Source of the DNA: Cryptosporangium arvum DSM 44712
Lineage (GTDB): Bacteria; Actinomycetota; Actinomycetes; Mycobacteriales; Cryptosporangiaceae
DNA length: 64,000 nt
Reading direction: 5' to 3'
Assembly: GCF_000585375.1 (NCBI RefSeq)
Contig: NZ_KK073874.1
Coordinates: 1,922,001 to 1,986,000 of the forward strand
Made by a program: the position numbers and the translations under genes. The notes beneath the pieces are model-generated. The model searched no databases and had not been told where the DNA came from. It saw only the letters and a program-made list of their open reading frames with translations. Positions within the stretch are counted from its first letter, which is position 1, and each line of letters begins with the position of its first letter. This document shows, piece by piece, positions 53,994 to 55,477 of the stretch.

Positions 53994-54554
53994 ATGGCAG
54001 TGGCGGAGCGAACACGCAAGGCGGTCGTACCGAGCGGGGTCGAGCGCACGATGGCCGAGGACGAGCTGATCGTGAGCAAGACCGACGCCAGAGGGATCAT
54101 GACCTACGTCAACGACGTGTTCCTTCGGGTCTCGGCGTACCCGGAGAGCGAAGTGCTGGGGCAGCCGCACAACATGATCCGGCACCCCGACATGCCGCGC
54201 TGCGTCTTCAAGCTGCTCTGGGACACGATCAAGTCCGGGCAGGAGATCTTCGCCTACGTCGTGAACCTGGCCGGCGACGGCGCGCACTACTGGGTGCTCG
54301 CCCACGTCACGCCGTCGTTCGGGCCGGGCGGCCAGATCATCGGCTACCACTCCAACCGGCGGACGCCCGACCGCGCCGGCATGGACGTGATCCGCCCGCT
54401 CTACGGCCAGCTGGCCGCCGAGGAGCGCCGGCACGCCAAGTCGTCCGACGCGCTGGCGGCCTCCGCCGCGATGCTCGCCCGCAAAGCCGAGGAGCACGGC
54501 GGGTACGAGCGCTTCGTCTGGTCGCTCGAGTCGGCGCGGGCGGGTGCCCGGTGA
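53994..54554 (+). CDS. Aer-like PAS sensor protein
   Basis: 186 residues. A PAS domain of the Aer (FAD, oxygen/redox) type fills the first 130: [20 protein letters not shown], the hallmark [39 protein letters not shown] and [13 protein letters not shown]. There is no membrane anchor. It ends in a helical tail and overlaps the chemoreceptor gene (GTGA, 54551-54554). TAATAT at 53963-53968 is a possible -10. ATG 53994 is given; GTG 54000 is better spaced from AAGGGGG (53987-53993). Together the two proteins make a split version of an Aer receptor. Confidence 0.85.
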
Positions 54555-55477
54555 AGAACGTGGACGGACAGTCGGAGGTCGAAATCTACCGCGGCGCGCT
54601 GCGTGCGCTGGCCGTCGCGTGCGAGGCCACCGGCAAGGGCGACTTCGAGGTGCGGGTGCCGCAGCTGCCGGGTGAGGACCGCTACCCGGACGTCGCCACG
54701 ATCCGGCACAGCCTCAACCATCTGCTCGACATGACCGACGCGTTCATCCGCGAGGCCGCAGCCTCGCTCGCCTCGGCCACCGAGGGCCGGTTCCACCGGA
54801 AGTTCCTCGAGCGCGGCATGCAGGGCACGTTCCGCTCCGGGGCCCGGTCGATAAACGTGGCCCGCGAGGCCATGCAGGCCAGCGCTCGGCGGGTCGAGGA
54901 GGTGACGGAACACCAGCTCGCGCTCGCGGCCGATTTTGAGAACGCCGTGCTCTCGGTCTCCGAAACCGTGGCCGCGGCCTCCACCGAGCTCGGTGCGTCG
55001 GCGCAGACGCTGGCCGGCGCGACCAGCAAGGCCGTCGAGTCCACCGACCAGGCCACCGCCACGATCCAGACGATGAGCGAGGCGTCGGCGCAGATCGAGC
55101 AGATCGTCCAGATCATCACGAAGATCTCGGCGCAGACGCGGCTGCTGGCGCTCAACGCGACGATCGAGGCGGCCAGGGCCGGGGAGGCCGGCAAGGGCTT
55201 CGGCGTCGTCGCCACCGAGGTCAAGCAGCTCGCCGACGAGACCTCGCGCGCCAGCGAGCGCATTCTCGAGCAGGTCACGGATGCGAGCTCGCGCACCGAC
55301 GACGCGGTCGCCGCGATCCGCAGCGTCACCGCGTCGGTCTCGGAGATGGACCAGATGGCCGCCGGTATCGCCGAGGCGGTCGAGGGCGGAGGCGTCGGGT
55401 CCGGCGGCTTGTCCCAGATGGCCGAGACGCTCAGCAGCGAGGTCACGAAGTTCCTGGGAGTGCTGCGCCAGGCGTGA
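54551..55477 (+). CDS. Soluble methyl-accepting chemotaxis protein (split Aer partner)
   Basis: 308 residues with no membrane segment. The first 120 look like linked HAMP-type units ([20 protein letters not shown] then [16 protein letters not shown] and [15 protein letters not shown]). The signalling hairpin tip reads [20 protein letters not shown] and [20 protein letters not shown], the MCP core, with Arg where QTNLLALNA usually has Asn. It probably relays redox signals from the PAS protein to CheA/CheW. No other chemotaxis gene is in the window. GTG 54551 overlaps the PAS stop, so translation is coupled. Confidence 0.88.

Follow-up and report, generated by a model that had tools for sequence, protein, structure and literature searches.

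The window, a 64,000-nucleotide stretch of the Cryptosporangium arvum DSM 44712 genome (a single contig of 9,195,993 bases), carries two overlapping genes on the + strand. The first (53994–54554, stop included) encodes a stand-alone PAS protein of the Aer/CetB type with 186 amino acids, recognised through Pfam PAS, the Aer structure 8dik, AlphaFold2 and Foldseek. The second (54551–55477, stop included) encodes a soluble chemoreceptor of 308 amino acids. Its GTG start is placed over the PAS stop codon and the genes share the bases GTGA (54551–54554). The upstream neighbour of the pair is an alpha/beta hydrolase gene, preceded by one for an MFS transporter, and the open reading frame downstream has no Pfam match. 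There is no chemotaxis gene among these three flanking reading frames, and the pair thus seems to form a locus of its own. The overlap, the [13 protein letters not shown] motif (PAS residues 56–68) and the arginine at the receptor tip, to which an earlier note on this DNA had drawn attention, are all present in the sequence.

The PAS protein matches PF00989 (E 6.3e-11) and consists of the PAS domain alone, with neither a transmembrane segment nor an output domain; as in the CetB family, its gene adjoins a HAMP-MCP gene. The closest solved relative by sequence is the FAD-binding PAS domain of E. coli Aer (8dik, E 6.2e-28), which is also the best Foldseek match of the AlphaFold2 model (8dik_A, TM(target) 0.92, rmsd 1.1; mean pLDDT of the model 94.9). 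The [16 protein letters not shown]-site hallmark lies at PAS residues 56–68 (54159–54197, + strand), as judged from the sequence and the 8dik alignment. Within and near it, H59, R63 and F72 are invariant in 41 of 41 family members. CetB2 of Magnetospirillum gryphiswaldense, for which FAD binding has been proven, contacts the cofactor through His54, Asn55, Arg58, Phe67, Trp71, Asn86, Val100 and Arg117, according to the excerpted text of PMC12442639. These eight residues correspond to identical ones in the window protein (H59, N60, R63, F72, W76, N91, V105 and R122), at a constant offset of +5 that we took from the motif and not from the CetB2 sequence. Likewise, the Aer contacts H53, N85 and R115 align with H59, N91 and R122 in the 8dik alignment. 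With all CetB2 and Aer contact residues kept and 8dik as the best match, the earlier description of an Aer-type PAS domain with a predicted FAD site holds.

To stabilise the PAS domain of E. coli Aer on its own, three changes (S28G, A65V and A99V; GVV) had to be engineered into it. In the window protein these residues are native (G34, V71 and V105), as they are in C. jejuni CetB at the Aer suppressor positions (Elliott and DiRita; PMC2628428, excerpt). Across the 41 family members the three sites hold Gly in 41, Val in 37 and Val in 40. The native GVV residues fit a PAS protein able to fold and to retain FAD when not tethered to HAMP. At a position occupied by Asp in both Aer and the window protein, C. 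jejuni CetB carries Glu. Following the PAS core, the AlphaFold2 model and family comparison reveal a C-terminal tail at residues 127–185 (54372–54548, + strand) with three helices (127–145, 150–166 and 171–185), extending past the region covered by 8dik (query residues 19–139) and ending in a family-wide Y..FV.SL-type motif. It is possible, as a guess, that this tail is the part that docks on the receptor.

The receptor matches MCPsignal (PF00015, E 2e-26, profile positions 4–128 of 172) and has the hairpin with conserved tip that marks the MCP superfamily. No membrane segment was found in it: on the N-terminal side of the tip, Kyte-Doolittle means over 19 residues reach at most 1.03, compared with 2.1–2.8 in the membrane-anchored partners of Bradyrhizobium. 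The AlphaFold2 model (mean pLDDT 84.5, pTM 0.44; helices 9–28, 46–77, 93–210, 215–278 and 287–307) likewise has no membrane hairpin, and both lines agree with the earlier claim of a separate soluble receptor. At residues of about 9–106 (54575–54868, + strand) the model has the order helix-connector-helix-connector-helix, which, together with HAMP matches in relatives, we read as two probable HAMP-like units in tandem before the hairpin. HAMP scores below the Pfam cut-off in the window receptor itself (E 0.21) and is matched in 8 of 27 relatives (best E 9.5e-8); the receptor profile also touches the Aer2 structure 3vol (E 0.0068). An alignment of 40 receptors places the same module in membrane-anchored, CetA-like partners across phyla. 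A fold search with the receptor returned chemoreceptors first and coiled coils of other families close behind, and was set aside as evidence because it added little beyond the sequence.

Solubility is not special to actinobacteria, since 26 of the 60 other receptors are also TM-less by hydropathy, the only basis of these calls (threshold 1.6). TM-less bipartite receptors occur in Alphaproteobacteria and Planctomycetes as well, which the earlier note had overlooked. Among Phycisphaerae-type MAGs, three soluble pair receptors (L088, L092 and L105) have 239–260 amino acids and an N-arm of 55 residues, shorter than the actinobacterial one.

The hairpin of the window receptor departs from the usual form in three respects. 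At the tip (QTRLLALNA), residues 195–197 read QTR (55133–55141, + strand), with Arg197 replacing the usual Asn, which is also found at the tip of E. coli Aer. This agrees with what had been noted earlier, a basic residue where Asn is usual. Among the matches listed, the third tip letter is Arg in 29 and Gln in one of 30 actinobacterial rows (28 of 29 by script, L051 by eye), and Asn in 61 and Glu in one of 62 other rows (60 of 60 by script, L108 and L114 by eye). From Tsr work we take the Asn position to adjoin trimer contacts; speculatively, a basic residue there could alter trimer or CheW packing.

The arms are also shortened. In the rows among the matches listed, the N-arm, measured from the end of HAMP to the tip, has 91 residues in 27 of 29 actinobacterial receptors and 87 in the other two, as against 133 in 37 of 60 non-actinobacterial receptors, the others ranging from 55 to 166. 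The difference between 133 and 91 is 42 residues, or exactly six heptads. The C-arm, from the tip to the AETL-type end, measures 95–113 residues in the actinobacterial rows and 140 in 53 of the 60 others (matches listed). In the window receptor it is interrupted by a Gly-rich break at residues 279–286 (55385–55408, + strand), where longer relatives have an EEQ methylation segment. Should the longer hairpin belong to class 38H, to which CetA2 has been assigned, the shortened one would count as 26H, and no such class is among the twelve length classes of MiST3.

Finally, the arms of the window receptor do not contain the methylation-site consensus, which is missing from all 29 actinobacterial rows and present in 51 of 60 others (matches listed). 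As a control within the same genome, the consensus was found in 13 of 14 receptors with a QTN tip and in none of five with another tip letter. The earlier note had mentioned neither the arms' loss of six heptads nor the missing methylation sites nor the di-HAMP-like input module.

Two further receptors of the window genome, L020 and L023 (at 6.01 and 1.80 Mb), have the order GAF-GAF-MCP. Like the window receptor they are TM-less by hydropathy, have short C-arms and are without methylation consensus, and L023 has a Lys tip (QTK); unlike it, they carry two GAF domains in the same chain and not a PAS partner. Short receptors without methylation sites may thus be a recurrent form in this genome. 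At 3.02 Mb, a very short MCP-like frame (L026) has a QTK tip and little else, and is possibly a fragment.

A search for the window PAS protein (P0001) in 121 relatives gave a match at E 1e-15 or better in 15. One of these, in G010, is a different, larger protein with no receptor downstream, in a genome without flagellin or CheA; the remaining 14 genomes hold 15 pairs. A scan of named genomes added 79 loci, drawn from the best 80 of 309 stretches encoding a relative; those listed come from Actinomycetota, Bradyrhizobium and other Alphaproteobacteria, Planctomycetota and Acidobacteria. Among the matches listed, a receptor gene lies directly downstream in 93 of 95 loci (the window and 94 others), the exceptions being L046 and L072. 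The script found 89 of these and four were assigned by eye (L051, L108, L114 and L081, the last a contig-end fragment), leaving six of 95 loci without a receptor by script (L046, L051, L072, L081, L108 and L114). Since the pair recurs across phyla, it is not a chance feature, and the possibility raised earlier that the two proteins belong to different clusters elsewhere is not borne out. Three loci (L065, L110 and L111) hold two PAS-receptor pairs in tandem.

In phylogenetic trees, a branch with an SH-aLRT of 92 separates the actinobacterial receptors from the rest (77 rows), and their PAS partners are set apart in the same way in a tree of their own (SH-aLRT 89; 86 rows). Both trees leave out the six loci just named as well as L038, L042 and L056, and the receptor tree also leaves out nine receptors without a matched HAMP pattern. 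Rows were not de-duplicated, and the receptors of L035 and L050, one from an order-mate and one from Micromonospora pattaloongensis, are identical over the tree columns (zero branch).

Among the 121 relatives, all 15 matches to QTR fell inside pairs, with none in the reversed control. In a class-wide sample of 394 genomes, the PAS protein (cut-off E 1e-40) was present in 13, one copy having an in-frame stop. The tips in these 13 genomes are Arg in seven (counted as pattern matches at pair distance), Lys in four and Asn in one (G482), while the receptor of the thirteenth (G362) lacks the tip segment. QTR had ten matches in this sample, seven inside pairs and three in other receptors. With seven of ten matches in pairs and seven of 13 PAS-bearing genomes, we dropped the QTR tip as an exclusive mark of the pair; a basic tip is usual, not universal, in actinobacterial pairs. 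In G362 (L138, on C18), the receptor frame after an intact PAS gene has apparently lost its tip segment through an in-frame deletion, next to a stretch of N.

The class sample also contains an actinomycete pair receptor (L147, in G131) that combines long arms with a QTR tip and a methylation consensus in the N-arm. A coupling of the tip Arg to arm shortening is ruled out by this receptor, which argues that arm loss arose separately from the basic tip. L147 is possibly an intermediate that precedes arm shortening. In G153, the distance from PAS to tip is like that in G131.

The two-protein layout of the pair has been described in other bacteria. CetA and CetB form a two-protein, Aer-like redox receptor in C. 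jejuni, where it mediates energy taxis (PMC2628428), and in M. gryphiswaldense (PMC12442639), as far as the excerpts of both papers go. In the latter, CetB2/CetA2 match the window pair in their overlapping cetB-cetA genes, a small cytoplasmic PAS protein and a separate transducer. The view in the earlier note that these modules normally form one chain with a membrane anchor is therefore incomplete, and its suggestion that a two-protein redox receptor would be a new architecture has to be given up. E. coli Aer does differ from the window pair in that manner, being one chain with a membrane anchor and a longer signalling domain; the Aer order of PAS, anchor, HAMP and MCP in a single chain is not found at the window locus.

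Like CetA, the window receptor has a HAMP-type module followed by an MCP domain and no sensor domain of its own, the HAMP scoring weakly in the window protein. Unlike C. jejuni CetA, which has two membrane helices, it shows no two-helix membrane hairpin before HAMP, by hydropathy or in the model. CetA2 is membrane-anchored and 38H (PMC12442639, excerpt), whereas the window receptor lacks a membrane segment and the methylation consensus and has shorter arms and a basic tip. Compared with the most frequent long form, its N-arm lacks 42 residues, which sets it apart from a 38H domain by residue counts and not by heptad-class HMMs. As it has neither the membrane hairpin nor the 38H length, we see in it a relative that is soluble and shortened and would function in the manner of CetA. 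In Aer2, haem is bound by the receptor chain itself, and we know of no separate PAS partner for either Aer2 or FrzCD. Both are similar to the window receptor in being cytosolic, with tandem HAMP units before the hairpin (FrzCD: PMC12077210, excerpt).

Taken together, the products of the two genes are likely to act as a single redox (energy) taxis receptor made of two proteins, in which an FAD-PAS protein docks on a di-HAMP module and a methylation-independent receptor feeds the flagellar F5 CheA. Judging from its conserved residues, the PAS protein would bind FAD and report the redox state of respiration. That the two genes stay paired, and that CetB2 contacts CetA2, suggests that it docks on the HAMP-like module of the receptor. 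The latter would be a cytosolic dimer, whose hairpin is reduced by six heptads per arm and by both methylation segments. Because these segments are lost, no CheR/CheB adaptation is expected, and signalling would proceed without it, as reported for E. coli Aer (review PMC13401364, excerpt). The receptor tip probably feeds the flagellar F5-type CheA/CheW, as gene co-occurrence indicates, and its basic residue might, speculatively, alter packing.

This co-occurrence holds for every genome with the pair among the 121 relatives. Flagellin was found in 14 of 14 pair genomes (own included) compared with 40 of 121 overall, and CheA in 14 of 14 (own included) compared with 33 of 121, figures that are inflated by kinship as the 14 genomes fall in six genera. 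A flagellated host with CheA and CheW genes, as had been supposed, is confirmed by flagellin, CheA and CheW in the window genome, and swimming spores are plausible in this host. A single CheA is present in 11 of the 14 pair genomes, and in all eleven the CheA frame contains two CheW domains and is accompanied by one separate CheW. This make-up is the F5 hallmark, described for actinobacteria (PMC10746217, excerpt), and the pair must use an F5-type CheA in these genomes. In the window genome, a cluster at 2.15 Mb comprises CheA (with two CheW domains), CheW, an unmatched reading frame, CheB, CheR and CheX, about 38 kb from flagellin. There is, however, a second CheA at 8.41 Mb, and the partner of the pair is accordingly not certain in this strain. 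The pair could be a genuine receptor that feeds this second system, or another output, and not flagellar F5. Both the window genome and two pair-bearing congeners have two CheAs, and the congener without the pair (G001) has one; nevertheless, the single F5-type CheA in 11 of 14 pair genomes makes such an output unlikely. G001 has flagellin and CheA without the pair, so the pair is dispensable.

The motif CTCA-N16-GCCGA, which we take to resemble flagellar sigma promoters, precedes 8 of 27 actinobacterial pairs among the matches listed at a distance of no more than 150 bases, compared with 0.16 expected, an enrichment that is partly post hoc since the 16-base spacer was picked after inspection of the data. 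The same motif with a 15-base spacer gave no match, and CTCA-N16-GCCGA is absent upstream of the window pair and of the pairs of both congeners.

A second alternative is that the PAS protein does not contact the receptor, the genes being merely co-transcribed and the receptor sensing otherwise through its HAMP-like module. The receptor indeed has a conserved input module of its own, and the PAS-receptor contact is a prediction. We regard this as quite improbable, given that pairing is kept in 93 of 95 listed loci from several phyla, that in the PAS tree as well as in the receptor tree the actinobacterial rows all fall on the same side of a branch, and that contact has been demonstrated for the homologous CetB2-CetA2 (PMC12442639, excerpt). 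Still less probable is a PAS domain with another cofactor, for example FMN as in a LOV photosensor, or haem, in which case the pair would not be a redox sensor. Many LOV structures match the PAS protein weakly in sequence and fold, but the match to Aer is much better than any of these, every residue that contacts FAD is conserved and the sole Cys (C70) lies outside the hallmark motif. A single-chain Aer broken by a frameshift or sequencing error, or with a decaying receptor, which the gene overlap and the Gly-rich break in the C-arm might suggest, can practically be dismissed, as the split recurs with its own stop and start in independent genomes (among the matches listed, a gap of -4 in 19 and +1 in 8 of 29 actinobacterial rows) and the shortened arm has the same length in 27 of 29.

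Returning to the two-protein redox receptor, what looks new is its actinobacterial form: soluble, arm-shortened, without methylation consensus and with a basic tip, with the exceptions seen in the class sample. Judged by their titles and abstract openings, none of the papers listed in our literature searches describes such a bipartite receptor for actinobacteria, and a mention in Elliott et al. 2009 or in supplementary tables is possible. The words actinobacteria and actinomycet are absent from a 2026 aerotaxis review (PMC13401364). A broader proposal is tentative and, in our opinion, rather doubtful. Flagellated actinomycetes might possess a distinct class of cytosolic bipartite redox receptors that have lost, in register, six heptads per arm and with them both methylation segments, giving a 26-heptad class outside the twelve of MiST3. 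Placed together with 38H membrane receptors in a mixed F5 array, such a receptor would set the redox bias without adapting, and its basic tip would tune the packing.

If the two-protein reading is true, the pair is both a candidate for energy taxis in Actinomycetes and a small redox receptor, soluble and in two parts, of which the sensor can be purified and exchanged independently of the transducer. It would also raise the question of how a short receptor devoid of methylation sites functions within arrays whose other receptors are long, methylated and membrane-bound. As a separate observation on CheW, a 551-codon frame (L131; G000:C1:7529917-7531407, - strand) contains three CheW domains and adjoins a 1022-codon PAS-rich receptor; similar triple-CheW frames are present in G001, G002, G003, G019 and G040.
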